Part shown: piece after piece, positions 40,476 through 62,614 of the stretch
How the letters are laid out: each line of letters opens with the position of its first letter
How positions within the stretch are numbered: the stretch's first letter is position 1
Assembly (NCBI RefSeq): GCF_000186465.1
Contig: NZ_GL636091.1
Location: 242,779 to 306,778 of the forward strand
DNA from: Streptococcus australis ATCC 700641
GTDB lineage: Bacteria; Bacillota; Bacilli; Lactobacillales; Streptococcaceae
Direction: 5' to 3'
Length of the DNA: 64,000 nucleotides
The notes under the pieces: model-generated
The model's input: the letters and a program-made list of their open reading frames with translations, nothing else
The model's database searches: none
Told to the model about the DNA's origin: nothing
Made by a program: the position numbers and the translations under genes

Positions 40476-40485
40476 TTAGTTTACC

Positions 40486-40743: not shown

Positions 40744-40756
40744 ATAATTATCCTTT

Positions 40757-41869
40757 CTAATGTCCTATAACATATGTAAATTGTTTGGCGGTTTCTGCAT
40801 CAAAAGTACGGTAACTAATAATTCCTAATCCCTTAACATTGCATTCTGAGACAAGAATTGAGCCGTCAGATTTAACCTGTTCCACAAATGAAATGTGTCC
40901 GTATATTGGATCAGCTCCAGCTTGTCCAGGACTAAATGATAGAGCAGAGTGTTCTGTTGGTGTATGGGTTGTTGTGAAACCTGGCTTATTCATCCATTGA
41001 CCACCATTTCCCATAAATGGATCAAAGTTGACTCCGACTTGTTTCCCACGGTTGAAGACATACCAGGTACATTGTCCCCAAGGATAGGTACTAGTGATAT
41101 ATCCTGTGGTATCAATAGCTGTTGTCAGACTGTAACCTACCGGTATATCATTTGAAGTTACTCCTCCACCATCTCTAGTTTTTCCTGTCGTTTGTTCAGG
41201 TGCTTTTGGTGTTCCTCCATGTTCATCAATGAAGGCATCCAGTTTTTGCATGGTTTCTGCACGTCTTTTTCCCGATCCAGTAGTATCTGTGAAATAGACT
41301 CCACCATCAGTTGCTGGATTGAGTGTTCCATTCGCAAACTTTTTAGCTTTGTCATCTTGGATTTTGAAGGTTTGGTTTTTATTTCCAATGATGGTTTGCT
41401 GGGTTAGTCCGACAACAGCAATCTCATCATTAAAGTTATTGGCATATTCTGGGTTGGAGTCATAGGCTCCAAAACCAAACATATTAGCTCCAGGATTGGT
41501 GGCTACTCCAGCAGTTCCAAGAGAGCTTTCATTCAGTGCGATCGCAACAATTCCACGGACATCAAGATTAGATTTAGCTTCCCATTCGAGGAGTTTCTTT
41601 CCATTAATTCGATTCTTATCATAGGAGATTCCTAACGTATCTAAAAAGCCGTCTAATTGCTCTGCCGTGATACCGAAGCGATGAACAAGTAGGTTATGAG
41701 TATAAGGGTCTCCATCTGACCAGTGATCCGCATAAGTCACTTCATTTTGGGATTGGGGTGAGCCATTCGTTCCACCACCTCCGACAGCCCCCATAAGGAT
41801 AATGATAATGAGGACCGGTAGAAAGAGAGGAATGAGACCAGCTAATAGAAACCATTTTAGTTTTTTCAT
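40757..41869 (-). CDS. Conjugal cell-wall hydrolase (lysozyme-like plus CHAP)
   Basis: The 370-aa protein has an N-terminal membrane anchor (about 5-30), a muramidase/glucosaminidase-like domain with candidate catalytic E114 (ALNESSLG), and a C-terminal CHAP amidase/peptidase with C267 (GQCTWYV) and H325 (YGHISFVE). It corresponds to Tn916 Orf14-type hydrolases that open peptidoglycan for the transfer channel. Confidence 0.88.
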   Translation of the reverse strand: MKKLKWFLLAGLIPLFLPVLIIIILMGAVGGGGTNGSPQSQNEVTYADHWSDGDPYTHNLLVHRFGITAEQLDGFLDTLGISYDKNRINGKKLLEWEAKSNLDVRGIVAIALNESSLGTAGVATNPGANMFGFGAYDSNPEYANNFNDEIAVVGLTQQTIIGNKNQTFKIQDDKAKKFANGTLNPATDGGVYFTDTTGSGKRRAETMQKLDAFIDEHGGTPKAPEQTTGKTRDGGGVTSNDIPVGYSLTTAIDTTGYITSTYPWGQCTWYVFNRGKQVGVNFDPFMGNGGQWMNKPGFTTTHTPTEHSALSFSPGQAGADPIYGHISFVEQVKSDGSILVSECNVKGLGIISYRTFDAETAKQFTYVIGH

Positions 41870-41885
41870 CGAATCTCCTTTCTAG

Positions 41886-42110
41886 TTAATGTCTTATATA
41901 AGCAGTGAACAAAACAGTCCCAAAACGCCATTTTGCATCTAAAACGACTGAATAGGACTTAGCCTGTAAGATAATTTGGTCTCGCTCTTGTTCTGTGACT
42001 GGAAATAAAAGAAGGAAATCGACTGAGCGTTTTCCTTCTTGGTAGGCCTGATAAAGAGTTTCTTCAAGAACTCTTGGAAAAGAAGTTCTTGAGCGTATTT
42101 TGGTATTCAT
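41886..42110 (-). CDS. Small ICE protein (74 aa), unknown
   Basis: The soluble-looking protein (MNTKIRSRTSFPRVLEETLY) starts 1 bp after the VirB6-like gene and lies 16 bp before the hydrolase gene. I do not recognise it; position suggests a role in transfer. Confidence 0.6.
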   Translation of the reverse strand: MNTKIRSRTSFPRVLEETLYQAYQEGKRSVDFLLLFPVTEQERDQIILQAKSYSVVLDAKWRFGTVLFTAYIRH

Positions 42111-42111
42111 A

Positions 42112-43995
42112 TCATTCTCCTCTGAGTTGTTTTAAGCATTCTGTTAATCGGTCTCTTCGTTCAATATTGGCTCTTAATTTATCATCTCGTGTCATGGTCT
42201 TTCTGTAAGCACGAGTGAAAGCATTAGATCCTTGGGCTTTGTACATGGATTGAGGATCTTTATATTCCTCTAATTTGCGCTCAATACTATTAATGCGAAG
42301 TTGTTTAAATGGAGAAATCCATTCTTCTTTAAGAGTTTGGAATTCCTCGTTTGAACTTGATGTTGGCTCCGCTGTGATTGGGGATTTCATTGAAGGAGTT
42401 GGTGTTTTTTCTTCAACTGGTTTAACCTTCTCAGGAATTGCCTTTGTTTTCGGAATGTTTGGTTCTGGAGTATCTGGACTTGTTGGCGTCTCAAGTGTTT
42501 CTGTTGGGAGTACTTCATCAGGTTGGTGTTCCGATTCCTTATTGGTAAAGAAAGAACCAACATTTTGGAAGTGACTCTTTGCATTCATGACCATTCCAGC
42601 TCCCAAACCAGCACCTGCTAGGGCAAAGTTCCCAAGGTGTTGAGCAGATGAAAGGCTTCTCGATGGGACTTGTGAAGCTACCTCTCTGGTCTTTGTGACT
42701 CCTTTTTCAACTTTATTTCCTATGTCATTCGCAACCATACGTGCTTTAGATCCAAGAATGAATTGGATCAACTCAGCTTTGTATTTCCATAGAAGGAAAT
42801 ATACAAGTCCTTTTGAGACAACTGAAATGAGTAGTTTAAAGACAAGGCCGAAGATGATCAGGGATGGAAGAGTTTTAAGAATACCATCAAAGCCTGTAAT
42901 GACGATATTTTCAATCATTTTCTCAATGTAGAAGACTAATAGAGTTAATAGACTCGTAATAGCTGGGAAAAGTAGTCCGCCAAACATGACTTTCAAAACT
43001 CCAAAAATCAGATCCTGCATTCTTGGTACAAAGGACATTAGTAGCACAATTGGAAAGAGCAGAATCATCATCAAGACAAGTGTTTGAGCGATGACGTTTA
43101 ACATTTGAATCAAAATAACCGGTATCGCTAATACAAAGGCTTCACAAATTTTGAAGATGACATAAAACATGCGAGTAAAGATGAAATCTGGCATAGCTGA
43201 AACCCAACGGTTCTTTTCACCATCATCATTGGCTCCATTTCCTAGTTCATCCAGATATTTATTGCGATCTTTCGATTTAACTGCTTTAAAGTTTCCATTC
43301 TTATCGCCTGTTCCTAATACCTTACTATCGTCAAAAGTCTCTTGTTTCCCATCTTGGCTATTCTTATATTTCCCATTTTCTTGACCTGTATTGACAAAGA
43401 CATAGGCTTTATAAGATGTTTCTGCAATATAGCTATCTGCCATAGAATCTCCAATTTTAATGGATTTATTATTGCCATATTCTACCTTAATATTCGTGAT
43501 ATTTTTAGTGACATCTTGAGAGACATGATTGATAGTATCAAGTAGATATAGACCACCTGATGTTCCAGCTATTGTTCCAAAATAACCAAAACCAAGGATG
43601 AGAACTAGAAAGACATGAAGGAGTGTTCTTGAAAAAGCTCCTTTCGAAAAGAAAAACTGATAAAAGAGATAAAACGCTAGAATCAGAAGCAACATTGAAA
43701 CGAGTGATTGTTTTGCGACTCCACCAGAGCTTGAACCGATGAATCCTTTCCAAATATTCATTGCTCCATTAAATACATAGTTCTTGTAGTTGGAGTAGAG
43801 ATCAATCTTTTCAAGAATTCGAATCAGCAAAGAAAAGAAGCCCACCACTGCGTTTAGAATGAAAAAGAAGAAGTTGACGAAAAGCTCATTAATCAGTACC
43901 CAAGCCCCGTTAAAGGAAGCGAACCCAGTTGGCTCCATATAGGACTTAAGGGAAAAGATATCGACTCCTCTTAGTTTGTCAAAAGCTTCTTGCAT
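42112..43995 (-). CDS. VirB6-like conjugation channel protein (Tn916 Orf15-like)
   Basis: The 627-aa protein has about seven or eight transmembrane segments between 30 and 425, interrupted by an extracellular loop (about 150-270), and a long cytoplasmic tail rich in Pro, Thr and Glu (about 470-560) ending in a basic helix. This is the layout of TcpH/ConG channel proteins of Gram-positive type IV secretion. AGGAGG lies 7 nt before the ATG. Confidence 0.85.
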   Translation of the reverse strand: MQEAFDKLRGVDIFSLKSYMEPTGFASFNGAWVLINELFVNFFFFILNAVVGFFSLLIRILEKIDLYSNYKNYVFNGAMNIWKGFIGSSSGGVAKQSLVSMLLLILAFYLFYQFFFSKGAFSRTLLHVFLVLILGFGYFGTIAGTSGGLYLLDTINHVSQDVTKNITNIKVEYGNNKSIKIGDSMADSYIAETSYKAYVFVNTGQENGKYKNSQDGKQETFDDSKVLGTGDKNGNFKAVKSKDRNKYLDELGNGANDDGEKNRWVSAMPDFIFTRMFYVIFKICEAFVLAIPVILIQMLNVIAQTLVLMMILLFPIVLLMSFVPRMQDLIFGVLKVMFGGLLFPAITSLLTLLVFYIEKMIENIVITGFDGILKTLPSLIIFGLVFKLLISVVSKGLVYFLLWKYKAELIQFILGSKARMVANDIGNKVEKGVTKTREVASQVPSRSLSSAQHLGNFALAGAGLGAGMVMNAKSHFQNVGSFFTNKESEHQPDEVLPTETLETPTSPDTPEPNIPKTKAIPEKVKPVEEKTPTPSMKSPITAEPTSSSNEEFQTLKEEWISPFKQLRINSIERKLEEYKDPQSMYKAQGSNAFTRAYRKTMTRDDKLRANIERRDRLTECLKQLRGE

Positions 43996-44006
43996 AGATT
44001 CACCTC

Positions 44007-46511
44007 CTAACTAGCGTATTTATTTTCAAGGCTTGATGATACTGTGGCTTTCATTGGTTTTAAAAGCATATCAATATCTTCAAAGATGTTGTGTACAGAA
44101 ATCATATTGAGATTGCCATACACGTCATAGTACAGGCATTGACCAGAGATCATATTGTCAATCCATTCGAGATTGCTTTCAGTGACTTCGAGATTGACGT
44201 GTTTTAAGATATCTTCACGTTCAGATTTTTCATAAAAAGCAAAGATAGTCCCGAATCCAGTAGTATCATCGTCATTTTCTGCATCATGTACAGACTGAGT
44301 AATCAGTGCCAAGGTATTATTTTTGGAGCGTCCAATCCGACGCATATTTTTGATAACGGCTTTTCCTTCTGCGGACTTCATAAGAATCCAAGCTTCGTCA
44401 AAGAACTCAATCGTATCTTCATTTTCATTTCGTTCTCCAAAGTGGGTACAGAAGGCACCAAGCGCAAACATGAGGGCAATAGAGTTGCGTTCATGATCTG
44501 AAATTTTTGTGGAATCGTCCTTTGGTAGTTTGAGGTTATTGACCTCTAGAATAGTCACTCGTGACTCGTAGTTAAGCCCTTGAGTGGTCCCATCTGAAAA
44601 GGCTAGTTCCAAGATAGAATTCGTCACAATTGAGGTCAGGTAACGGCCAACCGAAGCAATTTCAGAGGAAGTGGAGTCTCTCAGAACTTTTAGGACGTGT
44701 TTAAATCCGACCTTCTCACCAGCGACTCGTTTTTCTACAATCGCATTAATAGCTTCTGTGATAGCTGTTTTTTGATCCATCGTGACATCATCTACAGCTT
44801 GTAGTAGAAACTCAAGCATGTTTTTTGCGACCTCTACAGCTTGTTCTTTATCTAGAACGACAATAGGATCTAAGACTCCGTGGTTGGATGGTAGTGAGCT
44901 ATCCAGTGTTACAAAGTTAAAGTTCTCAATCTGTTTCTTGCGTTCAGGATAGAGATGTGCAAATTCAGGTGAGTTGATCACTTCTTGATAGTGATTTCTA
45001 AGTTCACGTTTAGGGTCAATATAAAGTGTCTTGACATTCTGTAAAGCCACACTTAAAAAGATGATCTGAGCAAGGAAGGATTTTCCTTGTCCTGTTGCAC
45101 CCGTAATGATGATATGCGGGTTCTTGGTGATCTTTCCAGCAATATCTTCTTTATTTCCGACTGTCGCATTGTAGAGGACAATGTTCTTTGAGGAATCAAT
45201 GGCTTTTGCAATATTGTCCCAACGACCTGTCCAATTATCCACTCGGCCGATATACCAACCAATACGGTTCCCAGAAGAGGTATTGGTGAAGGGCATGAGT
45301 TCTGAAAATCCACGGGCTGTGACCATATGTGTCCAGGTGCGAGTTTTCTTTTGGAGGTTTTCACCATAAAGCAGAGCTTGGAAGAGATAAGGTCCGTCTT
45401 GAGAGGCTTCACTAATTTCAACCCCCATATCATCAAAGTAGTTCAAAACCACTTGTCGTCTTTGACGGAGCTGATTCACACTTGAAGCAGAGATAATCAG
45501 ATAGGCTCCATATTCGATGATATCTTCCTTGTTTCCGACTTTCTTCATTAAGTCCTTTAGGGAGATGGAACCCATAATGATCTCATCTTGTTGGACAGTA
45601 TCGGTGTTTTCTGCCTCTTCCATGATGTTTCTGTAACGTGTATTCGATCGTCCCATTCGTCCCTTGATCTTGTTGGTATCAATGAATTCTGCCTTGATTC
45701 GTAGCTCAACGGGAAAGTTTAAGCGTTGGATAAATTCGCCAAGATGAAAACCATTGAATTGAACAGGAAATTTACCAACCGGAAGAATAGTCACAAAAGA
45801 AGATCCATAAGGGCTTTCTAGCTTAAGAAAGCCACCTTTTAGGACTTTGATCAAGGTATCTGTGATATTGAATTGAGCACGATTAGCGAGCACCTCCTTC
45901 TTGTAGTGAGGGATATAGCGGAGATATTGCATCCGCTGGTAATAAAAGAGTTCTTCATTAGATAACCGTTTTGCCCGAAGGACAGAGAAGGCTTGAAAAA
46001 TAGTGAATTCATCACTTTTATAGTCTTCATACCAAGTGGGACTTAATTCATATTCATAGCCAAGACCCTTGGCAATTTTTTCTGAGAACTCATTGAAGCT
46101 CTCATAGGCCAAGTCTTTGACGGTCGCTCCATGATTTTGTTTGCGCAAGGTCACTCCAACGACCCAGTCAAACTGATAAGGAATTTCCATTTCATCCGTT
46201 AGACGATCCACCGTGTAAAGAAGAAGTTCTTCTCCTAGTTCTCGGCTGTCATCTGCTAGAGCATCTGAAAAGTCCCGCATTTTCTCCTCTAAAAGATAGT
46301 CTTTAGGGATCAGAGATATTTCAAAGAACTTGTTTTTCTGGAGCTTCTTCATCATTTGAGCAACAGTGATTTTGTGTTTGCCCTTTTTTTCATCATCCGT
46401 AATCGTGATAGGAGTGTTTGGAATACGATAATAAGCAACGACGGTTTGATCTTTTTTGAGAGCTAGATTTTCATGTGTTTCCCTTATAGGATAGGTTAAA
46501 GTAATACTCAT
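44007..46511 (-). CDS. VirB4-like conjugation ATPase (Tn916 Orf16-like)
   Basis: The 834-aa ATPase powers the transfer apparatus. The Walker A motif GATGQGKS is at about 471-478 and a Walker B EFFDEAW lies near 720. I start at 46511 (MSITLTYPIRETHENL) because AAAAGGAGG is 5 nt upstream. A longer frame would start inside the TcpE gene without such a site. Confidence 0.92.
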   Translation of the reverse strand: MSITLTYPIRETHENLALKKDQTVVAYYRIPNTPITITDDEKKGKHKITVAQMMKKLQKNKFFEISLIPKDYLLEEKMRDFSDALADDSRELGEELLLYTVDRLTDEMEIPYQFDWVVGVTLRKQNHGATVKDLAYESFNEFSEKIAKGLGYEYELSPTWYEDYKSDEFTIFQAFSVLRAKRLSNEELFYYQRMQYLRYIPHYKKEVLANRAQFNITDTLIKVLKGGFLKLESPYGSSFVTILPVGKFPVQFNGFHLGEFIQRLNFPVELRIKAEFIDTNKIKGRMGRSNTRYRNIMEEAENTDTVQQDEIIMGSISLKDLMKKVGNKEDIIEYGAYLIISASSVNQLRQRRQVVLNYFDDMGVEISEASQDGPYLFQALLYGENLQKKTRTWTHMVTARGFSELMPFTNTSSGNRIGWYIGRVDNWTGRWDNIAKAIDSSKNIVLYNATVGNKEDIAGKITKNPHIIITGATGQGKSFLAQIIFLSVALQNVKTLYIDPKRELRNHYQEVINSPEFAHLYPERKKQIENFNFVTLDSSLPSNHGVLDPIVVLDKEQAVEVAKNMLEFLLQAVDDVTMDQKTAITEAINAIVEKRVAGEKVGFKHVLKVLRDSTSSEIASVGRYLTSIVTNSILELAFSDGTTQGLNYESRVTILEVNNLKLPKDDSTKISDHERNSIALMFALGAFCTHFGERNENEDTIEFFDEAWILMKSAEGKAVIKNMRRIGRSKNNTLALITQSVHDAENDDDTTGFGTIFAFYEKSEREDILKHVNLEVTESNLEWIDNMISGQCLYYDVYGNLNMISVHNIFEDIDMLLKPMKATVSSSLENKYAS

Positions 46512-46524
46512 AGGTCCTCCTTTT

Positions 46525-46935
46525 CTATAGATTTGTTTTTTCAAAGACAATTTCTTCTACAGGCTCTATTCGATCTTCATGGTAGATAGCTTTTTTGTTT
46601 AGCTTAAAATCCCAGAAGTAAATCAGGTAATCTCCAATAAAGACGTGCATCTTTTTTCCATGAGGCTCGTATTCGGTGTAGAACTTGGCTAATTTATAAG
46701 GGAGATACCAATAGAGCAAGAGAGAAATTGAGTGAGTGATTTTTGCGAGTGGCACAAAGATAAATCCTCCAAAGAGTAACATGGCCACAAAAACGATGAT
46801 AAAGACAATGAAAAAGGACAACTGCATCGGTGTCGCAAAGTACCATAGTCGAGTGCCCTTTTTTGTCTTGATTTCTTGGATCCAATAAGGAGCATTTAGT
46901 CCCTTACTGTAATCATACAGTCTTTCTTCATTCAT
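46525..46935 (-). CDS. TcpE family conjugation membrane protein
   Basis: The 136-aa protein has two transmembrane segments (about 38-85) and a soluble C-terminal part. It matches the TcpE/ConD/Orf17 family, which is needed for the Gram-positive transfer channel. It starts 2 bp after the 74-aa gene. Confidence 0.85.
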   Translation of the reverse strand: MNEERLYDYSKGLNAPYWIQEIKTKKGTRLWYFATPMQLSFFIVFIIVFVAMLLFGGFIFVPLAKITHSISLLLYWYLPYKLAKFYTEYEPHGKKMHVFIGDYLIYFWDFKLNKKAIYHEDRIEPVEEIVFEKTNL

Positions 46936-46937
46936 AC

Positions 46938-47162
46938 TTAAAGTCCTGATTCAATACCGAAGAGTCGCAGGAACCAGCCGACTGCTTTTAGGATATCTTG
47001 TCCTTTCGCAATGGAAACAATAACGGCATAGAAACCAACGACAGAGAAGAGTTGAAGCCAAGAGCTGTTTCGCCAAGCCTTAATCGCTAAGAGCACGGCA
47101 ATGGCTGTCAGGATCCAAATTCCATCGCCCTGGAGGAAGGTTCGTAGATTGTCTGTATTCAT
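46938..47162 (-). CDS. TcpD-like small membrane protein
   Basis: The 74-aa protein has two hydrophobic segments (about 14-28 and 35-65). Size, topology and position between the TcpC-like and TcpE genes fit TcpD-type accessory channel proteins. Confidence 0.7.
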   Translation of the reverse strand: MNTDNLRTFLQGDGIWILTAIAVLLAIKAWRNSSWLQLFSVVGFYAVIVSIAKGQDILKAVGWFLRLFGIESGL

Positions 47163-47171
47163 AGAGTTCTC

Positions 47172-48167
47172 CTATTCTTTATCATTTGCATAATTCAGTG
47201 GAATGGTGTGTTCTAGTTTTGTGACATAGTAGGTCTTTTCTTTTTCTGAGAGAGTAAAGGTGAAGTTTTCTGAGTGAGTGGTACCTCCAACTTCAAAGGT
47301 AGCTTGGACATAAGCGATTAAATCATCACCGTCCTGTTTGAGATAAGTGTAGTCGATCGTTTTGAAAGTGCTATTTGCGATGATATCCACATTTTTAGCG
47401 ATCAGATTAAGATTATCTTGGTTTGTGGTGTAGTTTGTAAAGAAGATCTTGAGGAATTTTTCTACCTTCTTACGCTGAGTATCTGAAAAGTGGTCGTTAG
47501 CGGTTAGTTGGAGCTTATCATCTTCGCTAAAGTGTCCAGCTTGTGAGGATTCAATAGCAGAGAACCAAGGAAGGCCGGAGATATAGTACTTTCCATCTTT
47601 TTCATCAAAAGGAATATTGAAACCTGTCACAATTTCTTTTTCTTCTGTGTTGTTATCCCGATGGATGCTTTCCTTGTATTTAACCTTATAGGTCGCAACT
47701 TTTCCTTCTACAGTCACTAACTGAGAATAGAGAAGTGAGCTGGGGTTTCGAACTTGCCCTTGAGATTTTACATCAGGGATGAAGTTGTAGAATTTATTTA
47801 AGTAGTCCACTTGCTCTTTTTGTTTTTCACCTTCATTAGGAAGTGTGAAATAAGCATAGACATAATCATTCAGATAATACTGGAGTTTATAGTCATATTT
47901 TCTACTCGACTCCATAGGCTTTGTCTGTTGCTTTTGAGTGGCCTCTACTTGAGCTTGTAGTGTACCTACCTTATTTGAGAGTGTGATAGCACGAATAGAT
48001 CCCAAGAGACCAACAAAAAGGAGGAAAGAAATCCCTCCTATGACTGCAATATTGACGGTCTTTTTATTGGTGACTTTTAGTTTTGGTGGACCTCCTTTTT
48101 TCTCCACCTTTTTAAAGTGTGAGAGATATTCTTTTGCTTGAAGCAAATAGCGTTTAGCTTTATCCAT
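47172..48167 (-). CDS. TcpC family conjugation protein (Tn916 Orf13-like)
   Basis: The 331-aa bitopic protein has a cytoplasmic basic N-terminus, one transmembrane helix (near 33-55) and two extracellular NTF2-like domains, as in TcpC/ConB. I place the start at 48167 (MDKAKRYLLQAKEYL) because a full AAAGGAGG lies 6 nt upstream. The longer frame overlaps the preceding gene. Confidence 0.85.
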   Translation of the reverse strand: MDKAKRYLLQAKEYLSHFKKVEKKGGPPKLKVTNKKTVNIAVIGGISFLLFVGLLGSIRAITLSNKVGTLQAQVEATQKQQTKPMESSRKYDYKLQYYLNDYVYAYFTLPNEGEKQKEQVDYLNKFYNFIPDVKSQGQVRNPSSLLYSQLVTVEGKVATYKVKYKESIHRDNNTEEKEIVTGFNIPFDEKDGKYYISGLPWFSAIESSQAGHFSEDDKLQLTANDHFSDTQRKKVEKFLKIFFTNYTTNQDNLNLIAKNVDIIANSTFKTIDYTYLKQDGDDLIAYVQATFEVGGTTHSENFTFTLSEKEKTYYVTKLEHTIPLNYANDKE

Positions 48168-48177
48168 ATATCCTCCT

Positions 48178-48735
48178 TTAGAGACCAGCAAGCTCAATGA
48201 GCTTTGAGCCTTTCGCATAGAGGCGCTTATTGGCTTTTTCGATCTCGCCATTAATGTAATAGTAGCCTCGTAGCTCAGTTTGAAGTTGTTCAATCAGGTC
48301 AGGTTTTAGGTCTTTGGCTTCTTCTTTTTTTAGGAGACTATTTAATTCTCCAGCCTTGGTCCAAGCCTCTCTATGATCTTTCTTTTTAAGTAATTCTCCC
48401 AGTTCATTCGTGACTTGAGAGACTTTCTTTTCAAAAATAGTTTTAGTAGCCATTTCAATTTCCTTTCTAAATGTTTCTTGATTGTCTTTGATGGTCTTTT
48501 GGATATAAGTAATGAGTGAGGGGCGCATTTTTTTATTTACGCTCAACACTTGACCATCTAGCGTGAAACAGGCATGTTCATAGTCATAGAAACCTTTCGC
48601 ATCTGGTGGTTTTTCGGTAGATCTTCCAGCGCATTCATAGTAGAAGTCCTTTCCTTTTCGTAAGAGAACGTACATATGCCAGAATTCTTGTTCTGGAAGA
48701 AGCAGAAAATCTGCTTGATAAATCTTCTTCAGCAT
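48178..48735 (-). CDS. ICE protein (185 aa), unknown
   Basis: The protein starts MLKKIYQADFLLLPEQEF and is soluble with a helical C-terminal half. I choose the ATG at 48735, inside TGAGATG at the stop of the previous gene, with AGG 8-9 nt upstream; an ATG at 48759 would overlap that gene more. No family recognised; it lies between the relaxase and the TcpC gene. Confidence 0.65.
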   Translation of the reverse strand: MLKKIYQADFLLLPEQEFWHMYVLLRKGKDFYYECAGRSTEKPPDAKGFYDYEHACFTLDGQVLSVNKKMRPSLITYIQKTIKDNQETFRKEIEMATKTIFEKKVSQVTNELGELLKKKDHREAWTKAGELNSLLKKEEAKDLKPDLIEQLQTELRGYYYINGEIEKANKRLYAKGSKLIELAGL

Positions 48736-48736
48736 C

Positions 48737-48970
48737 TCAAGAAGCCTCAAGCAGATCATCGTAGCCTAGAGCTTGGTAGATAAAATCTGAATCAAACCAG
48801 AGCCAGTCATTGATTTGTCCTTCTGTTGGAGTATCACCAGAGAAGATATCTTCACAAATGACGGTTAGAGTATCTACTCCACCACGTTCACGGACGGTGT
48901 TTAAGGTGGTTAGTCCACCAGACCATGCTTTAAAGTTTTCTAGTGAATTGATTTGAACTTTGTATTCCAT
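48737..48970 (-). CDS. Small ICE protein (77 aa), Orf19-position
   Basis: An acidic soluble protein (MEYKVQINSLENFKAWSGG) lies 14 bp after the relaxase gene, where Tn916 has orf19. Proteins starting like this are common in this ICE family, and the function is unknown. Confidence 0.65.
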   Translation of the reverse strand: MEYKVQINSLENFKAWSGGLTTLNTVRERGGVDTLTVICEDIFSGDTPTEGQINDWLWFDSDFIYQALGYDDLLEAS

Positions 48971-48984
48971 ATTGCTTTTCCTTT

Positions 48985-50217
48985 CTAGTGTTCATAGTGT
49001 TTATTGGCTTTGAGAAGTCTTAACATGGCTTTTCCTCGATCAGTGATCTCTCCGCTATTCTGAATCATTTTCATGTATTCTGTTTGGAGGATCTTGTCTG
49101 CTTCAGTGACTAGTGCAAGAGAGTTCGCAACTTGATAGGTAAGCCAGCGAATCGTTCGCTCAATACTGTATGGTTGTGGATTGGTTGAAAGTTTTAAGGG
49201 TTCAACACCTCCAAAGAGTTTTTGCCATTTTTCATCAGGTTTATAGGCTCCGAAGCGAGTGAGACCATCATAGACTTGGATTTCTTTATTGATGATGCCT
49301 CTAGCGATTTCTCCGAGGTCTACACCGTTAATGTATTCTTCCACAATGCCTTGAGCTTTCTGATCTGAAAAGCGGAGTTCATAGCGATTCCAGATACCAA
49401 AAATCTCCAAGGATTCGTCCAAGGAGATGTTTTCCATTCGAGCAATTTCATAGCGCTTTTCATAAAAGTTGAAATAGAGTTGACTTTGACGGCTCCCAAA
49501 GTAAATGGACAAGCCGTGATTAGCCTCCATGTCTTCGTTGTCAGTGAAGGATCCACCACCCGTAATATTCCATTTCTTGATCGTGTCTAGGACAATCTCT
49601 TTGGAATAGAGTTTATCAATCAATTTGGGAATTTGAATTTGTTCGTCCTCGTGACCATAACCCTTATAGAGTTCATCTAGAGCGATATCGAGTCGCTTCA
49701 CCCGAACGTCTTCATAGGAATAAAGAATGTTTTGAAGAAAGATCTGCCAAGTGATCCCCTTGTCTTCTAGAAGTAGTTCTAACTCACGGCATCCTTGCCC
49801 GGATAGTTGAAGACAAGTTTGGTAGTCATTGGTCACTGACTTATCAAAGAAATCAAAAATCCAGATATTTCCTCGTTGCCATAAGTGGGTATAGTTCATA
49901 AGACGAGTTTCTTGGTCTGTAAATTCACTTAGGTGGCAGTGAAGAAAGTTTTCACAGAAAGCATCTAAATCCTTCAATCTAGGAAAGGTCAATCGTAGAT
50001 AGTCGATCTGAGCTCGAAGACTGTTTTTATCGCAATCTTGATAGTAACCAAGTCTTTCTTTAAGTTCTCTAAACTTATCAATCGTCAGTCCTCTTTCGCC
50101 TGTTTCATAAGAGCGATAGGTTCTTGTAGGGAGATCAACAGCTTGTGCAAATGCTTTTTGATTCAGTCCTGTTTGTTTTCTGAAATTCTTAATATGAAAA
50201 GGACTAATTTTGTCCAT
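48985..50217 (-). CDS. MobT-type relaxase/replication initiator (Tn916 Orf20-like)
   Basis: The 410-aa protein has an N-terminal XRE helix-turn-helix (about 5-60) and a Rep_trans-type domain (about 65-350) like RelSt3, NicK and Tn916 Orf20. These nick at oriT and attach to the strand to be transferred. The hairpin-rich gap immediately upstream is the expected oriT, and the helix-turn-helix probably binds there. Confidence 0.92.
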   Translation of the reverse strand: MDKISPFHIKNFRKQTGLNQKAFAQAVDLPTRTYRSYETGERGLTIDKFRELKERLGYYQDCDKNSLRAQIDYLRLTFPRLKDLDAFCENFLHCHLSEFTDQETRLMNYTHLWQRGNIWIFDFFDKSVTNDYQTCLQLSGQGCRELELLLEDKGITWQIFLQNILYSYEDVRVKRLDIALDELYKGYGHEDEQIQIPKLIDKLYSKEIVLDTIKKWNITGGGSFTDNEDMEANHGLSIYFGSRQSQLYFNFYEKRYEIARMENISLDESLEIFGIWNRYELRFSDQKAQGIVEEYINGVDLGEIARGIINKEIQVYDGLTRFGAYKPDEKWQKLFGGVEPLKLSTNPQPYSIERTIRWLTYQVANSLALVTEADKILQTEYMKMIQNSGEITDRGKAMLRLLKANKHYEH

Positions 50218-50241
50218 TCATCGCAACACCTCTTTCTAACG

Positions 50242-50276
50242 AAGTGACACACTTTTTTGACGAAAGTGACACACTT
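50242..50276. promoter_or_regulatory. Twin AAGTGACACACTT dyads upstream of the relaxase gene
   Basis: The 13-bp sequence AAGTGACACACTT is itself a perfect dyad (AAGTG-ACA-CACTT). It occurs twice, at 50242-50254 and 50264-50276, 22 bp apart, about two helix turns. It lies between the start of mobT and the oriT hairpins. A binding site for the relaxase helix-turn-helix domain or an autorepressor is likely. Confidence 0.6.
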
Positions 50277-50324
50277 CATAAAAATTGAAAACCCAACTCC
50301 CATAAGGAATGAGGAGGGGTGGAC

Positions 50325-50430
50325 TTGGCGTTTTTGCCAAATGTAACCCCCCTATTAGAAAACGGGGGTTGAAGTTTCATCATGGCCTAGAAACTTCGGG
50401 CTACGGTCTGCGCCTGACCTGCGGTCAGGC
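50325..50430. other. oriT: Origin of transfer (oriT), candidate
   Basis: Four hairpins stand side by side: TTGGC/GCCAA (50325-50340), AACCCCC with GGGGGTT (50345-50351 and 50364-50370), GAAGTTTC with GAAACTTC (50371-50378 and 50390-50397), and GCCTGACC with GGTCAGGC (50412-50419 and 50423-50430). The second resembles the C-run/G-run inverted repeat that carries the nick site in oriT of ICEBs1 and Tn916. It lies between the coupling protein and relaxase genes, the usual location. Confidence 0.75.
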
Positions 50431-52113
50431 TTGCCCTTGCCCTTGTCCTAGCCCATGATGAACAATCGTCGCTTCAACTGCTTTTGGATAAGACCTGCGT
50501 CCTCCCTCTTCAAATTGAGCGAGGATTTCAAGAAGAAGTTTTTCTTGAAAAGGATCCACTAGAATAGCGGATACAGTCCGCTCAAAGATGATCCCTTGTT
50601 CTGTTAAGAGATAGATAATCTTGCGTAAGGTTGGCATTTTAAGATTTTGTTCGTCCGCAAATTCCTTGAGTGGTCTTTTGTTTGATTCGTTTTCTATAGT
50701 CTCCTCTTCCTCTATAGGGTCAATTGTTTCAAGCGGTGGTTTATATTCTTCAAATACTGAGAACTCTTCTCCTTCAAACTCCATGATGGGAATTTTAGAG
50801 TAGGCATCATAGAAGGAGAAACCTTGATCAAGCGGTACATAAGGAGAGAAAAACTCACCAGCCAGCTCACCGTTGTTTGCGATATAGCCTCGTCCTTTGA
50901 CTTTGACACCATTAATTTCATCTAGCTTTTTGAACTCTTTGGTTTTATTGGCATCTCCAAACATCATGTCATAGCCTGTTGATTCTAAATGACCGACGGA
51001 AAGACGCTTCATAAAGTTATCCCGAAGAGCCGTTTTGATAAATTCTCCATCGGGCCGTTGCATAGCAAAGATGATAAAGACTCCAGCTTGACGACCTTCT
51101 AGAACTAATTGTGAGAGGTATTCCATGAGTTCTGACTGTTGGCTATAGTCACGATCAATCTTGGCCATGAGGGCTGCCCACTCGTCTACCAGGATGAATT
51201 TTGGTTTCATGTCATAGTGAGTAAAGTTCTTTCCAGCTTGGAATCTTGGCGAAGTGGACATCCGCTCATAGCGTTTTTCCATGAACTCTACATTCTCTTT
51301 AAAACAGTTGATGATATCTTCCTTACTAGTATAAACACGGCCATGAAAGACTGGAATTTTCTTTAATCCAGCTAGATCAGAATTCTTTGGATCACAGATA
51401 TCAACAAAGCCAATTTTAGCTAGTGCATAGATTATAGTCATGAGAACAACTGTTTTTCCTCCACCTGTTCCACCGCCAATGAGAAGATGAGGTTCTTCAA
51501 TATAATCCCAAGATACATCTTTCATGAGCTGGAGTTTGGATCCCTTGACTTTTACTTCATCAATTGTGATTCGGCTATCAATTCGGTTAATAGCAATTTC
51601 ATATTTGATAAAACGGTTATCAAAGGTTTTATTACGAAAGTCCCCGTTAAACATGACTTCAAGCGTAGCTCCCAGATTTAAAAAGCGATCTTGGAACTTA
51701 TTGCCTTCTAGAATGAAGCTCACTTCAATCTTGTAGCGAGACTGTTTGATATACACTTGAGGCAAGGTGATTTTTTCAATGATCTTGTTTTCACGTCTGA
51801 CCTTTTTAACTAGATAAAGGTTATTCTCGAGCAAAAAGCGAGAAAGAATTCGAAGGCTGTTTAGCTTTTGAAAAAAGAGCATCTTCCTGTAGCAAACCCG
51901 ATTGATAAACCAAGAGAAGATTAAAGAAAAGAGAAGTCCAGCTCCTAGAAAATATCCTTGAGGTAAAGGATGGACTTTTAATTCTTCTAGATGTAAGTAG
52001 CTGTAGAAACTAATAGCCAACAAAAAAGGAAACCACCAGATAAACCATGTGATTCCCTTTAGTTTACGATGAAAAACTCGAACTCTTTTTCCCCGATAGG
52101 TAAAGAGTTTCAT
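50425..52113 (-). CDS. FtsK/SpoIIIE-type coupling protein (Tn916 Orf21-like)
   Basis: The 562-aa ATPase has two transmembrane helices (about 22-40 and 53-71), Walker A GGGTGGGKT at 213-221 and Walker B ILVDEW at 307-312. It delivers the relaxosome to the channel. Its C-terminal end carries a Gly-Gln repeat (GQGQGQ) that overlaps the edge of the oriT hairpins. Confidence 0.92.
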   Translation of the reverse strand: MKLFTYRGKRVRVFHRKLKGITWFIWWFPFLLAISFYSYLHLEELKVHPLPQGYFLGAGLLFSLIFSWFINRVCYRKMLFFQKLNSLRILSRFLLENNLYLVKKVRRENKIIEKITLPQVYIKQSRYKIEVSFILEGNKFQDRFLNLGATLEVMFNGDFRNKTFDNRFIKYEIAINRIDSRITIDEVKVKGSKLQLMKDVSWDYIEEPHLLIGGGTGGGKTVVLMTIIYALAKIGFVDICDPKNSDLAGLKKIPVFHGRVYTSKEDIINCFKENVEFMEKRYERMSTSPRFQAGKNFTHYDMKPKFILVDEWAALMAKIDRDYSQQSELMEYLSQLVLEGRQAGVFIIFAMQRPDGEFIKTALRDNFMKRLSVGHLESTGYDMMFGDANKTKEFKKLDEINGVKVKGRGYIANNGELAGEFFSPYVPLDQGFSFYDAYSKIPIMEFEGEEFSVFEEYKPPLETIDPIEEEETIENESNKRPLKEFADEQNLKMPTLRKIIYLLTEQGIIFERTVSAILVDPFQEKLLLEILAQFEEGGRRSYPKAVEATIVHHGLGQGQGQA

Positions 52114-52126
52114 CCTGTATCACCTC

Positions 52127-52588
52127 CTAGTTTTCCTTCTTATTTTCTACCGGTTTGTTTTCTTTAGTCGGTGTGCCTCCAGTTTTTTTCTTGATTTTAG
52201 AAGCAAAGAGCTTATAGATATCATTACGATTGACGTGAGTATGTGTGATAACAATATCTTCCAATTCAACCTCTTCTCGGTATTTAATACCCAGATCCTC
52301 GATCTCAGACTCAGACATATCAGCGATCGTGAAAAAGAGGGTTTCATGCTGGACAGAAGAATGAATTCCTACGACAATTCCACGGATCTCACCTGTATTG
52401 ACTTGTACAAATGATCCATCAGGATTTCGTTGTGAACGATCCACTTCAAAGATGATATCAGGACCTTCAATGCCTCGGAAAGTCAGTTTCCCAAGGACAG
52501 CTGGGACATCTAGTCCATCTGTAATGACACGATAAGTCTTGTCAGCGATTTGTAGTTTTTCTCCGTAGTTTAATCCAATTTTAGCCAT
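52127..52588 (-). CDS. DUF961 family protein (Orf22/HelP-like)
   Basis: The 153-aa protein matches the DUF961 family of Tn916-type elements; ICEBs1 HelP of this family assists the helicase during element replication. The lysine- and glutamate-rich tail (about 130-153) is probably disordered. It is 13 bp before the coupling protein gene. Confidence 0.75.
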   Translation of the reverse strand: MAKIGLNYGEKLQIADKTYRVITDGLDVPAVLGKLTFRGIEGPDIIFEVDRSQRNPDGSFVQVNTGEIRGIVVGIHSSVQHETLFFTIADMSESEIEDLGIKYREEVELEDIVITHTHVNRNDIYKLFASKIKKKTGGTPTKENKPVENKKEN

Positions 52589-58987: not shown

Positions 58988-59833
58988 TTATTTTATAATT
59001 TTATTAAAATGTTCTTGATACTGTGACTTGATATTATATTCTCCTAGAATTTCAAATACTTGTAATGCCTGTTTCATCTTATCGATTCCATTTTGATCCT
59101 TCTTTTTAAATTCAAAATATCCTGTAGAATACAGAAAAACGGTTTGCTCATAATAATTTTGTTCATTTTCTAATAGTTTTTCTATCTCACTAATCAAATA
59201 TATGCAATTAGAAAATTCTTCTAAGTCTATGCTTAAAATTAAGCAATTTATTGCTAACTGTGTAACAAGTCTCTTATTAGTTTTATTTAATGATGAATAT
59301 ATATAGTTCTTCAACATTTCCTTTGTTAATAGGAAGTAAGAACTGTATTGAACTGTTCTTACACAGTTACCTAATAGAATAATTTCATAATATCCCCAAC
59401 TTTCAACTTGAAATAGATAGTCTGTTAAATTTAGTATTTCTTCATCCGATGGAAAAACTTTTTGGTCTACGGTGTGAAGAATTGATTTTACCATCGTTCT
59501 TTCAAAAGAGTTTAAATTATAGTTTGAAGAATTGGAGAGAAGCTTGGAAATGCTCTCCATGTTTTGTAATGAGTATTGGTTTCGAATGTAATGTATTAAA
59601 TGAGCAAATGACTTAGTATGATTATTATCCTTCTCATGTAATATAATAAATTCATCTAAAGAAATATGTAGCTTATTTAAAATATTAATAAGTCTGATGC
59701 AAGAAATTTCTGATTCTCCTCGCTCAAATCTAGAGATTTGAGATTTAGAGAGATTCTCGTCAGCTACAGAACATAGGGTGATTTGTTTTCCTTGACGAAC
59801 TTTTCTTAGTGTTTTTCCAAGTGATGATTTCAT
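58988..59833 (-). CDS. rgg: Rgg2/3-like quorum-sensing regulator
   Basis: The 281-aa protein has an XRE domain ([16 protein letters not shown], then [16 protein letters not shown]) and an Rgg repeat domain with [12 protein letters not shown], a stretch shared with streptococcal Rgg2 and Rgg3, which bind SHP pheromones. I start at 59833, where GAGGG lies upstream; a GTG at 59848 overlaps it. A SHP-type gene starts 78 bp away on the other strand. Confidence 0.92.
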
Positions 59834-59878
59834 TTTTCCCTCTTTCACAACAAATTTTTGAGTTATTTATTTATATTA

Positions 59879-59884
59879 TATAAT
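59879..59884 (+). promoter_or_regulatory. -10 element of the SHP gene
   Basis: TATAAT lies 27 bp before the SHP start codon. The matching -35 is weak (TTGAGT at 59858, spacer 15), as expected for a promoter that needs an activator such as Rgg. Confidence 0.5.
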
Positions 59885-59911
59885 AAAAGAAACTAATAAA
59901 GGACTAGTGAT

Positions 59912-59983
59912 ATGAAGAAACTATCGAAAATTTTTCCTATTTTATTTTTATTCTTAGATATAATAATTATTGTGGGAGAATAA
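59912..59983 (+). CDS. shp: Short hydrophobic peptide (SHP) pheromone precursor
   Basis: A 23-codon gene starts MKKLSKIFPILFLFLD and ends IIIIVGE. This matches the SHP architecture: a basic start, a hydrophobic body and a C-terminal pheromone starting at Asp (DIIIIVGE), very close to the DIIIIVGG end of S. pyogenes SHP3. AAAGGA lies 8 nt upstream. Divergent placement next to an Rgg2/3-like gene is the standard arrangement. The last residue Glu instead of Gly is unusual. Confidence 0.9.
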   Translation: MKKLSKIFPILFLFLDIIIIVGE

Positions 59984-60001
59984 AGTGCTTACCAGTACTG
60001 A

Positions 60002-60028
60002 TAAACTATTAGTGTTACTAATAGTTTA
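60002..60028. other. AT-rich hairpin after the SHP gene
   Basis: TAAACTATTAG (60002-60012) and CTAATAGTTTA (60018-60028) are perfect complements around TGTTA. There is no T run, so partial termination, mRNA stability or a binding site are all possible. It separates the SHP gene from the downstream peptide and ABC genes. Confidence 0.5.
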
Positions 60029-60046
60029 CTTTGAAAGTGTAATCTT

Positions 60047-60211
60047 ATGTGTGGTGATAGAATTGTTTGTATAAGTCCGATGGCTGGACGTAGTTCTAGA
60101 GCTAAAGCAATTTTTAGAGATAAGCCAAAATATAAAATGAATATAAGTTGGTTATTTTTAGATATACTGTTTGTTACTTTTTTATACGTAACAGATGATA
60201 ATTATCTATAA
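60047..60211 (+). CDS. Possible 54-aa peptide of the SHP-ABC cassette
   Basis: The frame starts MCGDRIVCISPMAGRSSRAK, has a basic middle, and a hydrophobic C-terminal half (WLFLDILFVTFLYV) ending DDNYL. The ribosome binding site is weak (GAAAG, 9 nt). It lies between the pheromone gene and a three-gene exporter, where a secreted or modified peptide would be encoded. It may also be non-coding. Confidence 0.35.
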   Translation: MCGDRIVCISPMAGRSSRAKAIFRDKPKYKMNISWLFLDILFVTFLYVTDDNYL

Positions 60212-60242
60212 TTTAAACAGATGATAATTATCTATAATTTAA
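60191..60242. repeat. Perfect 26-bp tandem duplication
   Basis: The 26 bp from 60191 to 60216 are repeated exactly at 60217-60242. The duplication covers the stop region of the 54-aa frame and ends just before the Shine-Dalgarno of the ABC ATPase gene. Confidence 0.9.
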
Positions 60243-60254
60243 AGGAAGGCTAGT

Positions 60255-61046
60255 ATGGTAATTAATATAAAAAATCTGAAGAGAAGTTTTTTTGTTAGAG
60301 AAACAAGAGAAAATTTTGAAGCTTTGAAAGGAATTTCTTTTTCAATAAAACGAGGAGAGATATTTGGATTACTTGGTCCGAATGGTGCAGGCAAGTCAAC
60401 TACAATAAAAATTCTTTCAACAATGCTTCTACCTACATCAGGTGAAGTAGAAATATCCGGATTTGATATCTATAAAGATGAGCAACAAATTCGTGAGAGA
60501 ATAAATTTCATTTTTGGAGGAGAAAGAAGTTTATATTTTAGACTTTCTGCTGAGGATAATTTGTTTTATTTTGCGGATCTATATAAGATACCTCGGAAGA
60601 AGCAACTGATTTTGATTCCAGATTTACTTAAACAGGTTGGGTTGAATAGTTTTGCAAAACGTAGAGTAGAGACATTCTCAAAAGGTATGAAGCAACGTCT
60701 TCAGATTGCTAGAGCATTGTTAAATGATCCTGAGATAATTTTTTTAGATGAACCGAGTATTGGTCTTGATCCAGTAGGAGCACTTGAGTTGAGAAACATC
60801 ATAAAAGAGTTGGCTAAAAATGGGAAAACAATTCTTTTAACAACCCATTATATGGCTGAAGCTGAGGAACTTTGTGATAGAATTGCCATCATTAATCAAG
60901 GCGAAATTGTAACCTGTGGTACATTACCAGAAATTGCATCATTAATTTCAGATGAAGATAGAACAAAAATTCTTCAAGATAAAGTGAAAGAACAAAAAGA
61001 AATAGATGTAACACTGGAAGATATTTATTTGCATTTAGTGAGGTAG
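60255..61046 (+). CDS. ABC transporter ATP-binding protein
   Basis: The 263-aa ATPase has Walker A GPNGAGKST (41-49), an ABC signature FSKGMKQR (141-148, the ABC-2 variant), Walker B IIFLDEP (161-167) and the H-loop His198. It pairs with the two following ABC-2 permeases. Such three-gene exporters commonly serve peptide export or self-immunity. The SHP/Rgg pair upstream is its likely regulator. Confidence 0.93.
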   Translation: MVINIKNLKRSFFVRETRENFEALKGISFSIKRGEIFGLLGPNGAGKSTTIKILSTMLLPTSGEVEISGFDIYKDEQQIRERINFIFGGERSLYFRLSAEDNLFYFADLYKIPRKKQLILIPDLLKQVGLNSFAKRRVETFSKGMKQRLQIARALLNDPEIIFLDEPSIGLDPVGALELRNIIKELAKNGKTILLTTHYMAEAEELCDRIAIINQGEIVTCGTLPEIASLISDEDRTKILQDKVKEQKEIDVTLEDIYLHLVR

Positions 61047-61054
61047 TCGTAAGT

Positions 61055-61825
61055 ATGAAAGTTATTTTTGCTAGTGCTATTGTACACATGAAGCAAGCAG
61101 TAGCTAGAAGTACGTTTCGCTATTGTCTATTTTTTAATCCTCTGTGTAATGCTATTCTCTTAGGGCTAATGTATAGTAATAAATCCAATCAAGAATTTAC
61201 TTTATATGCTATTTTAGGAACCTCTCTATCTTCATTTTGGACTATTATCTGTTTTTCGTCAGCTGCGGACATAAACAGAGAAAAGTATTTAGGGACATTA
61301 CCTATTTTATTCACATCACCGTCAGGTTTTAAAAAGATTATTTTTGGCAAACTACTTGGTAATAGTCTTTGGGGAGTGGTAGCATTTCTGTTGAATGTAA
61401 TATTTGTGACGATATTATTTGGTCGCATAATGGCTGTTAAGAGTTTTAGCTTATTAGTAATTGTGATTGTCTTAGCAGTATTGACCTTCGTTAGTATAGG
61501 AATGCTGATGTGTTCAGCATTTACCTTATCAAGAAGTGCACGTTTGTTAATGAACTTAATAGAGTATCCGTTACTTTTAATAACAGGCATGGTATTCCCT
61601 TTAGATTTTATAAACCAATATATAAGGTGGGTTTCATATATTTTATCTCCAACATGGGTAATGAAAGGATTTGAACTTGTTGTATACGGTGGGAATTTAA
61701 AAGAAATATTTATTGTTATATCAACTCTCTCTATACTTACCGTATTTAATTTTATAATTGCTCACTTTGCCTTTGTCAGTGTAGAGAAAAAAAGTAGAAT
61801 TGACGCAACTTTGGAGGTGTATTAA
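61055..61825 (+). CDS. ABC-2 type permease (first)
   Basis: The 256-aa protein has six hydrophobic segments and the ABC-2 permease pattern, including a loop ADINREKYLGTLPILFTSP that contacts the ATPase. It starts 8 bp after the ATPase gene and ends directly at the start of the second permease. Confidence 0.88.
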   Translation: MKVIFASAIVHMKQAVARSTFRYCLFFNPLCNAILLGLMYSNKSNQEFTLYAILGTSLSSFWTIICFSSAADINREKYLGTLPILFTSPSGFKKIIFGKLLGNSLWGVVAFLLNVIFVTILFGRIMAVKSFSLLVIVIVLAVLTFVSIGMLMCSAFTLSRSARLLMNLIEYPLLLITGMVFPLDFINQYIRWVSYILSPTWVMKGFELVVYGGNLKEIFIVISTLSILTVFNFIIAHFAFVSVEKKSRIDATLEVY

Positions 61826-62614
61826 ATGGAAAGTGTTTTAAGATTTTTCAGAAGGATTATCTTTTCTTATAAACAATCCTCAATGATGTCGGATTGGAAA
61901 ACTTATATGATGTTCGACTTAATTCCTCCAATTTCACAAACACTGCTTTTCTCTCTGATTGCCGGATACATTTACGGAACTGATTATATTCAAAAATGGA
62001 TGATTGGAAATGCGATACTAATAACATCTTTTGGAGCTTTGTTTGGTGTTGGTACACAACTGATGGATGAAAAATATAATGGGACATTGAGTTTTCTAAT
62101 TGCTTCAAAAACCAAGTTAAGATCGATACTATTTTCTAGTGCAATTAGCACAATGTTTACTAGTATGATTTCTGTAACTATCGGCGTGGTATTAGTGAGT
62201 TTTATTTTGAGAATTAATTGGAATATAGAAATGATTTCTTCGTTTATTGGTGTCCTTTTCCTATCTTCTTTCGTTGCAATGAGTTTTGGATATATTTTTT
62301 CATGCTTTATTTTAATAACAAGTGAAACAAATCTTATATTGAATTTAGTCAGTCGATTGTTGTTGATTTTTACTGGGGCTAATTTTCCAGTTAGTAAATT
62401 GCCTAATATTTTTCAGTGGTTTTCTAAAATGTTACCTTTGACAAGGTCTATTCAGATTGCTCAAGGTCTCATTGAAGGAAATAGTCTTTCAAAATATAAC
62501 AAACTAATTTATGAAGAGTTAACCCTAGGTTTTTCTTTCATTCTAGTAGCATCTATTCTTTTAAAATATATGGAAAGACAGTCACGTACCTCTGGAAAAC
62601 TAGAGTTTACATAA
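61826..62614 (+). CDS. ABC-2 type permease (second)
   Basis: The 262-aa protein has six hydrophobic segments and a loop MDEKYNGTLSFLIASKTK equivalent to that of the first permease. It starts at the base after the first permease's stop codon, so the two are probably made in equal amounts and form a heterodimer. Confidence 0.88.
   Translation: MESVLRFFRRIIFSYKQSSMMSDWKTYMMFDLIPPISQTLLFSLIAGYIYGTDYIQKWMIGNAILITSFGALFGVGTQLMDEKYNGTLSFLIASKTKLRSILFSSAISTMFTSMISVTIGVVLVSFILRINWNIEMISSFIGVLFLSSFVAMSFGYIFSCFILITSETNLILNLVSRLLLIFTGANFPVSKLPNIFQWFSKMLPLTRSIQIAQGLIEGNSLSKYNKLIYEELTLGFSFILVASILLKYMERQSRTSGKLEFT

Follow-up and report, generated by a model that had tools for sequence, protein, structure and literature searches.

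Organization of the rgg-shp-exporter locus

We analyzed a 64,000-nucleotide stretch of the Streptococcus australis ATCC 700641 genome (NZ_GL636091.1, positions 242,779 to 306,778; hereafter the window), near the end of which lies a cassette composed of a regulator gene of the Rgg type, a divergent gene for a short hydrophobic peptide (SHP) and an ATP-binding cassette (ABC) exporter operon. A preliminary description had listed an Rgg gene, a divergent SHP gene, an ATPase and two ABC-2 permeases, and each of them was recovered where it had been placed. The rgg gene (58988..59833, minus strand), assigned by Pfam, NCBIfam, alignments with structure chains and a tree, encodes an Rgg3-type regulator of 281 aa, and shp (59912..59983, plus strand) a precursor of 23 aa. 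The region between them contains an Rgg-box-like site, TTTCCCTCTTTCACAACAAA (59835..59854, plus strand), and a -10-like TATAAT of the presumed shp promoter (59879..59884, plus strand). Directly 3' of the shp stop are two overlapping inverted repeats, hairpin 1 (TTACCAGTACTGATAA; 59989..60004, plus strand) and hairpin 2 (60002..60028, plus strand). The distance from shp to the exporter genes is 271 bp; these are likewise located on the plus strand and encode the ABC ATPase (60255..61046; PF00005), ABC-2 permease 1 (61055..61825; PF12698, PF01061) and ABC-2 permease 2 (61826..62614; PF01061, PF12698).

The Rgg3-type regulator

The window Rgg possesses both an N-terminal helix-turn-helix (HTH) and the Rgg C-terminal domain (Rgg_C PF21259, E 8.5e-47), as is typical for the Rgg3 type of group I Rgg/SHP pairs, and reaches 172.7 bits with TIGR01716 vs. 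a cut-off of 36.9. The ATG at 59833, from which the 281 aa are counted, agrees with the alignments of relatives better than the GTG at 59848 further upstream. Compared with solved chains (phmmer), the protein scores 450 bits with 6w1e, 7ji0 and 10lg, which we take to be S. thermophilus Rgg3, and 305 bits with 4yv6, presumably S. dysgalactiae Rgg2. Rgg matches of any kind were detected in 180 of the 197 genus genomes, the best being 75% identical. The former designation "Rgg2/3-like" is borne out and can be sharpened to Rgg3-type, given amino acid identities of 75% to the nearest relative and 71% to an SHP3-adjacent Rgg, but 51–54% to six Rgg2-type sequences. The SHP3-adjacent Rgg belongs to locus L019 of genome G045, which encodes the exact SHP3 precursor published in PMC3257209; the other Rgg of G045 that adjoins an SHP2/3-family gene is 53–54% identical to the window Rgg. 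A tree of 39 sequences places the window Rgg on the Rgg3 side, split from the six Rgg2-type rows with a support of 100/100, the Rgg3 and Rgg2 labels depending on L019 and L087 lying in G045 with its exact SHP3 precursor. The window Rgg groups weakly with five loci (support of 83/8 in the 39-row tree and 90/65 in the first tree). Nine of its positions deviate from residues conserved in ≥93% of 30 Rgg3-type proteins, including K218E and L225Q, the latter located three residues before the one aligned with Rgg2 Tyr222, which is presumably a pocket residue. As for phages, the Rgg search returned four records, one 29% identical over the whole length and three partial at 62–76%.

The shared promoter region and the SHP peptide

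We found a single match to the 20-mer Rgg-box pattern in the 64 kb, with 0 mismatches, as compared to 0.04 matches expected at ≤2 mismatches; the pattern was derived from aligned loci including the window, not from a published box. Our comparative sample of 33 Rgg3-type loci, several of them closely related to one another, comprised 30 loci kept from the best Rgg matches across the 197 genomes (L001–L030), the window and the sister loci of genomes G252 and G261 (L039, L040). All 33 carry the Rgg box (≤2 mismatches) with a -10 placed 44–45 bases after the box start, and the presence of both elements in the rgg/shp intergenic region is a further Rgg3-type trait of the window. By analogy, the box would be the site of Rgg binding and the -10 would serve shp; a generic promoter scan did not list the hexamer at 59879–59884. 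The first sizeable gene behind this promoter varies between most of the L001–L030 loci and includes, by eye, ABC, MFS, AMP-binding, AroE-like, Nudix and aminotransferase genes. In L004, L011 and L013, the position of shp behind the same Rgg-box promoter is occupied by a 17-aa frame, MKMAIGGEYY(N/S)LYTKRK.

The window SHP, MKKLSKIFPILFLFLDIIIIVGE, matches NCBIfam NF033797 (SHP2/SHP3) through position 22 of 23 with E 2.9e-9 and 37.1 bits, which is 0.9 bit below the curated cut-off of 38; judging by its sequence, it is SHP3-like and not an NF033797 member. As in other Rgg3-type loci, the divergent frame encodes a short hydrophobic precursor with an acidic first residue in the predicted mature part. 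The frame is intact, its start, hydrophobic core and Asp are retained, and the predicted octapeptide, DIIIIVGE, departs from that of SHP3 (DIIIIVGG) at the last residue only. Cleavage before the acidic residue was shown for other SHPs (PMC3679016), and by analogy the same cut would release mature DIIIIVGE here.

Intact shp genes are present in 17 of the 33 loci. Their ends are DIIIIVGG (six), DIIIVGG (two), DIIIIAGG (two) and seven variants that occur once each, namely that of the window, DIIIIVRG, DIIIIIG, DIITIVGG, DIIIIVGGWTS, DIIVIVNW and GIIIIVGG; 11 of the 17 end in something other than exact DIIIIVGG, and the Glu end was seen in the window only. In the other 16 loci the shp frame is not intact, and some of the broken frames could be assembly errors. 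Among 284 genus genomes, an IIVGE-stop pattern matched in 10, none of which was judged an SHP on its reading frames, and [DE]IIIIVGG matched in 24, in some cases within broken frames; the pattern also accepts TGG instead of a stop, as in G011. DIIIIVGE was not found in a literature text search, whereas DIIIIVGG occurs in 13 papers, and SHPs of pneumococci truncated to end in DIIII are published (PMC5597970). We rejected the notion that a unique meaning of the Glu end can be read from sequence alone, as other SHP ends occur once each too. Since SHP ends vary so widely, the Glu end by itself gives no direct support for a private specificity.

A tandem hairpin downstream of shp

Over 16 aligned loci, compensatory changes occur in 8 of the 15 pairs of the two hairpins and 99.2% of cells are paired, as opposed to 81.9% in shuffles and 27–54% in slid versions. 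Because the locus-picking script demanded a GTAC-centred repeat and a second hairpin, the 99.2% is partly by construction, and the compensatory changes together with a genome scan are better evidence for the hairpins than the pairing percentage. The alignment was made of the post-shp script rows, with promoter palindromes and L069 unused; L018 and L023, in which hairpin 1 is accompanied by no more than a short second stem, were omitted from a 17-row set, and L008 was dropped for the 16-row set. The rows include L067, a copy not directly after shp, and the window, which was added by hand, its hairpin 1 (with one pair of the consensus structure broken) failing the script. Changes to G-U were seen in 2 of 240 cells only, so that a DNA-level palindrome is possible. 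A longer hairpin 2 that uses the last three columns of hairpin 1 has 95.3% of cells paired, its three extra pairs being found in 13–14 of the 16 rows and showing no compensatory change; the sequences weakly suggest that the two hairpins may compete. Single-sequence folds of seven copies were all more stable than the shuffle means (z -1.7 to -5.1), and in L001 the lowest-energy fold contained both hairpins, in the other six chiefly hairpin 2, with the 5' hairpin of the window copy offset from hairpin 1. Hairpin 2 of the window copy is devoid of a T-run; that of G108 has a 16-pair stem with a T-run and was scored as a terminator. A terminator scan of 59800–62900 scored none, a scan of this kind requiring three G-C pairs and a T-run and being blind to the AT-rich hairpin 2.

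The hairpin model R1 scores 59.2 bits on the window copy, which was part of its training set. In 22 chosen genomes it gave ten matches of at least 59 bits, all at Rgg3 loci, the next best (35 bits) being the reverse strand of one top match. Across the 284 genomes, the hairpin model matched 22 genomes at E 1e-4 (27 rows, of which 4 are reverse-strand duplicates), which gives 23 copies, most of them, or close relatives, having been in the training set. Nineteen of the 23 are located directly after shp (13 intact, 6 broken), with the Rgg box 142–149 bp before; the remaining four, in G241, G082, G061 and G081, are not, although three of these genomes (all but G082) have an shp-like sequence ~1.2 kb past the copy. 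Copies outside the window were recorded by the scan at L168:1515–1550 and in L127–L135, L142 and L157–L169. By reading, 8 of the 33 loci (L006, L012, L020, L021, L024, L025, L028 and L030) have shp or its remnant and lack the full hairpin element. Of the four copies not adjoining shp (L158–L161), the one whose surroundings were read, in L160, follows a gene (71–937) for an HTH protein of 288 aa that might be a further peptide-sensing regulator.

No Rfam family fits the hairpins, the two sub-threshold matches (E 0.069 and 0.14) lying elsewhere. The words terminator, hairpin and stem-loop are absent from the main texts of PMC3150281 and PMC13059722, and one broad, thin literature word search showed nothing on a post-shp hairpin among the 15 titles it listed. 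The element may act as a partial terminator or an mRNA end element between pheromone and cargo. Since the window copy occupies the gap behind shp, expression of the exporter probably requires read-through.

The exporter and its differing front ends

The Pfam assignments, an ABC ATPase with ABC-2 membrane domains, identify an ABC-2 type exporter. We rejected PptAB, the SHP exporter, as its identity on account of layout: the window operon has two permeases of ~260 aa in which Pfam found only ABC-2 membrane families, while PptAB/Ecs presumably consists of one ATPase and one large EcsB-type permease, the comparison being one of layout and Pfam families and not with the PptAB sequence. LanFEG lantibiotic immunity transporters, we assume, share the window layout of one ATPase and two permeases; a confirmed LanFEG was rejected as well, the ATPase scoring 175.9 bits vs. 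the TIGR03740 cut-off of 309.75. That the exporter comes with no recognised substrate gene, as described initially, agrees with the genes found, and a transporter-only target operon has precedent (PMC12445099).

Relatives of permease 1 were detected in 7 of the 284 Streptococcus genomes (E 1e-10), and a contig scan of genomes for the exporter gave six loci, in a Candidatus Atopostipes metagenome-assembled genome (MAG), Streptococcus sp. F0442, S. cuniculi, S. moroccensis, S. ovuberis and S. acidominimus. Rgg adjoins the exporter in two of the seven genus genomes, G252 and G261. The synonymous divergence (dS) among the window, G252 and G261 differs from gene to gene. For the pairs window-G252, window-G261 and G252-G261 it is 0.055, 0.20 and 0.23 in permease 1, 0.16, 0.63 and 0.65 in the ATPase, and 0.74, 0.17 and 0.87 in permease 2; the order and size of these values indicate that the exporter itself is mosaic, its parts not being equally close. 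In turn, dS of the Rgg genes is saturated (2.2, 2.5 and infinite, respectively), and the three exporter-linked Rgg3-type genes do not form one clade (p-AU, approximately unbiased test, 0.0032, for a group defined by the shared exporter but after the first tree had been inspected). Identity to the window climbs within the ~170 first bases of the ATPase gene in four comparisons (G252, G261, G183 and the MAG), and the order and orientation of the cassette and its neighbours differ among the window, G252 and G261. With Rggs of more than one clade in front of a conserved exporter, either the exporter was coupled to Rgg3 modules on three occasions or its Rgg/shp front was exchanged, and the sequences suggest that Rgg3-type switches have been coupled to this and other cargo genes repeatedly. 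As regards mobile carriers, permease 1 had no relatives among nine stretches of viral contigs, its plasmid matches were five records, all <60% identical and none from Streptococcus, and matches in PDB were limited to weak ones with ABCG1 (best E 0.0023).

Proposed control of the exporter

We judge it rather probable that the locus represents a quorum-sensing cassette of the Rgg3 type that lies next to an integrative element and has the ABC-2 exporter as cargo under pheromone control. When pheromone is missing, the Rgg3-type protein would occupy the box at 59835–59854 and the shp promoter (Pshp) would be kept off. SHP would be exported, trimmed to the octapeptide beginning at Asp and re-imported; its binding to Rgg would make Pshp fire, and transcription would yield shp and, in part, read through the tandem hairpin (59989–60028) into the ATPase and permease genes. 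An efflux or self-protection pump, as we predict the exporter to be, would in this manner be raised when pheromone producers are dense. Among published systems, PptAB is a known SHP exporter (PMC5167397), Rgg3 is described as a repressor at low SHP that is able to activate at high SHP (PMC13361665), and RNA-seq of strain D39 displayed a single transcript spanning shp and the genes behind it once SHP was added (PMC5597970).

Gene order, the promoter with its Rgg box and the relatives make the preliminary proposal of exporter control plausible. It is further favoured by the higher score of the window Rgg with the Rgg3 chains, by the box and -10 common to all 33 loci, by the joining of three Rgg3-type genes of more than one clade to this exporter and, within the limits of the terminator scan described above, by the lack of a scored terminator. 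Other observations weigh against it. A 271-bp gap with a conserved hairpin pair intervenes between shp and the ATPase gene. Homologous loci lacking the SHP frame had been named as evidence that would refute the proposal, and neither of the two sister Rgg-exporter loci has an intact shp. Yet both retain the Rgg box. The shp-like frame of G252 is disrupted close to its start, and its end, now out of frame, is similar to EIIIVGC. In G261 shp is absent and the ATPase start codon, 79 bp from the rgg start, occupies the place where shp starts in most other loci (77–91 bp from the rgg start), a placement that speaks for control by the Rgg-box promoter. Scanning with NF033797, which would miss other SHP groups, revealed no convincing SHP in G252 (best 11.9 bits) or G261 (none); in the positive control G045, two genes exceed the cut-off, and at E≤10, 5 of 14 control genomes match below it. 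The other Rggs of G252 and G261 are ≤34% identical. With shp broken in one and absent in the other, retention of the exporter needs no local pheromone. In addition, the exporter of five of the seven genus genomes (G183, S. cuniculi, S. moroccensis, S. ovuberis and S. acidominimus) is preceded by a gene for a ~345–366 aa protein with an ArsR-type HTH (HTH_5), and no Rgg was found within the stretch retrieved around the exporter in these five, nor in the 315 bases present 5' of the exporter in the Atopostipes MAG.

Such shp losses also bear on an alternative that we regard as somewhat unlikely, namely that the cassette mostly receives, its Glu-ended SHP being in decay or inactive and its Rgg sensing DIIIIVGG of neighbouring streptococci. 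Besides both sister loci, 16 of the 33 Rgg3-type loci are devoid of an intact shp frame, no IIVGE-ending SHP turned up among the 284 genomes, and DIIIIVGG of a different species elicited a response in two of four published reporter loci; yet both S. thermophilus loci were unresponsive to non-cognate peptides (PMC3679016 for both results), and the window frame is intact, with an octapeptide that departs from that of SHP3 in the last residue only. It is unlikely, too, that the exporter is a passenger with its own promoter, independent of Rgg/SHP. The 271-bp gap, the hairpins, the 25-bp repeats 5' of the ATPase gene (see below) and the different regulator in five of seven genomes would fit such an arrangement, but three genomes have Rgg3-type genes coupled to the exporter, which in G261 directly follows the Rgg box, and no plus-strand sigma-70-like site was scored in the gap, a weak point since the presumed shp promoter likewise escaped that scan. 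Finally, a private channel, in which Glu and matching Rgg changes confer a separate signal specificity, seems improbable: the nine Rgg departures, K218E and L225Q near the residue aligned with Rgg2 Tyr222 included, would fit it but are expected at 25% divergence, and C-terminal SHP variation is common and has no known meaning.

We tentatively put forward a wider picture, whose parts are meant jointly and which we hold to be possible but doubtful. Rgg3 loci could represent a cargo platform in which Rgg, an Rgg-box promoter and, in many cases, a tandem hairpin resembling an attenuator form the front, with unrelated operons exchanged behind it. Frequent shp loss would leave many cells as receivers whose private cargo is turned on by the pheromone of others. 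This exporter would have been added to the platform on three or more occasions, or else other Rgg3 modules would have replaced its front, and the terminator-like hairpin and a competing hairpin might set the amount of cargo per pheromone transcript.

Relation to known Rgg/SHP systems

The Rgg3/SHP3 type of switch and exporter operons behind Rgg/SHP pairs are already known; the more interesting aspects are the exchangeable front end, the frequent shp loss and the hairpin pair. Like S. pyogenes Rgg3/SHP3 (and Rgg2/SHP2), the window has divergent rgg/shp genes, an MKK-type hydrophobic precursor with a DIIII core and an operon after shp, and it shares the Rgg box and hairpin element with G045; unlike S. 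pyogenes Rgg3/SHP3, it has Glu as the last residue and an ABC-2 exporter as cargo. S. pneumoniae Rgg0939/SHP (PMC5597970 Table 2) is likewise an Rgg/SHP pair of the DIIIIVGG type, but the Glu end is absent from that table. According to PMC5597970, the post-shp operon of Rgg0939-type loci varies by strain and includes annotated lantibiotic and other ABC exporters, induction being shown for D39; these exporters are likened to ours by annotation only. In S. thermophilus, the gp_sali_7 SHP/Rgg target operon is transporter-only in 264 of 265 strains, as in the window, but the SHP is EGIIVILVG and the remaining strain carries a complete RaS-RiPP operon at this site (PMC12445099). In turn, S. mitis Rgg0094/SHP0094 (DIIIVGG; PMC13361665) has a cargo that differs from that of the window; two of the five weakly grouped tree neighbours of the window Rgg (L001, L007) encode DIIIVGG, and from this peptide we infer that their Rggs are Rgg0094. 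The same source reports an Rgg-controlled peptidase-containing exporter (rtg). If our reading is true, a shared streptococcal pheromone channel repeatedly serves to make interchangeable pumps and pathways density-dependent, in this case next to mobile DNA, and sometimes with no signal production. The hairpin after shp would then offer a concrete point, simple to test, at which the step from pheromone to effector genes is controlled.

Mobile-element context and minor features

Genes for an integrase (Phage_integrase), a CHAP protein, an AAA_10 ATPase (which we take to be VirB4-like), Rep_trans and FtsK (FtsK_SpoIIIE) are found on the minus strand at 39204..52588, ~6 kb from the cassette, and this region looks like an integrative conjugative element by its sequence. 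DNA similar to window positions 40.7–51.9 kb (94%) and 51.5–54.1 kb (89%) in G261, and to 40.7–54.6 kb (94% to 89%) in G252, directly adjoins the cassette stretch, with Rgg ~6–7 kb beyond the element-like DNA in both. Membership of the cassette in the element is suggested by proximity in three genomes.

Within the gap between shp and the exporter, a 54-aa open frame (60047..60211, plus strand) is a candidate that we rejected as a firm gene, its single database match being near-identical (98%, 5 member sequences, 3 contigs). Immediately 5' of the ATPase gene, we noticed by eye a 25-bp tandem repeat in two copies with GATAATTATC (60192..60241, plus strand), for which the role of a metal-regulator site is a guess. 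The cassette is flanked by small genes at 58473–58829 and 63127–63489, both on the minus strand, with lipoprotein-like starts and similar by eye. Lastly, the first 48 residues of a 57-aa frame at 62914–63087 show a 90% match to the start of a 142-aa frame in L046 (3023–3451), and the window frame is perhaps a junction scar.

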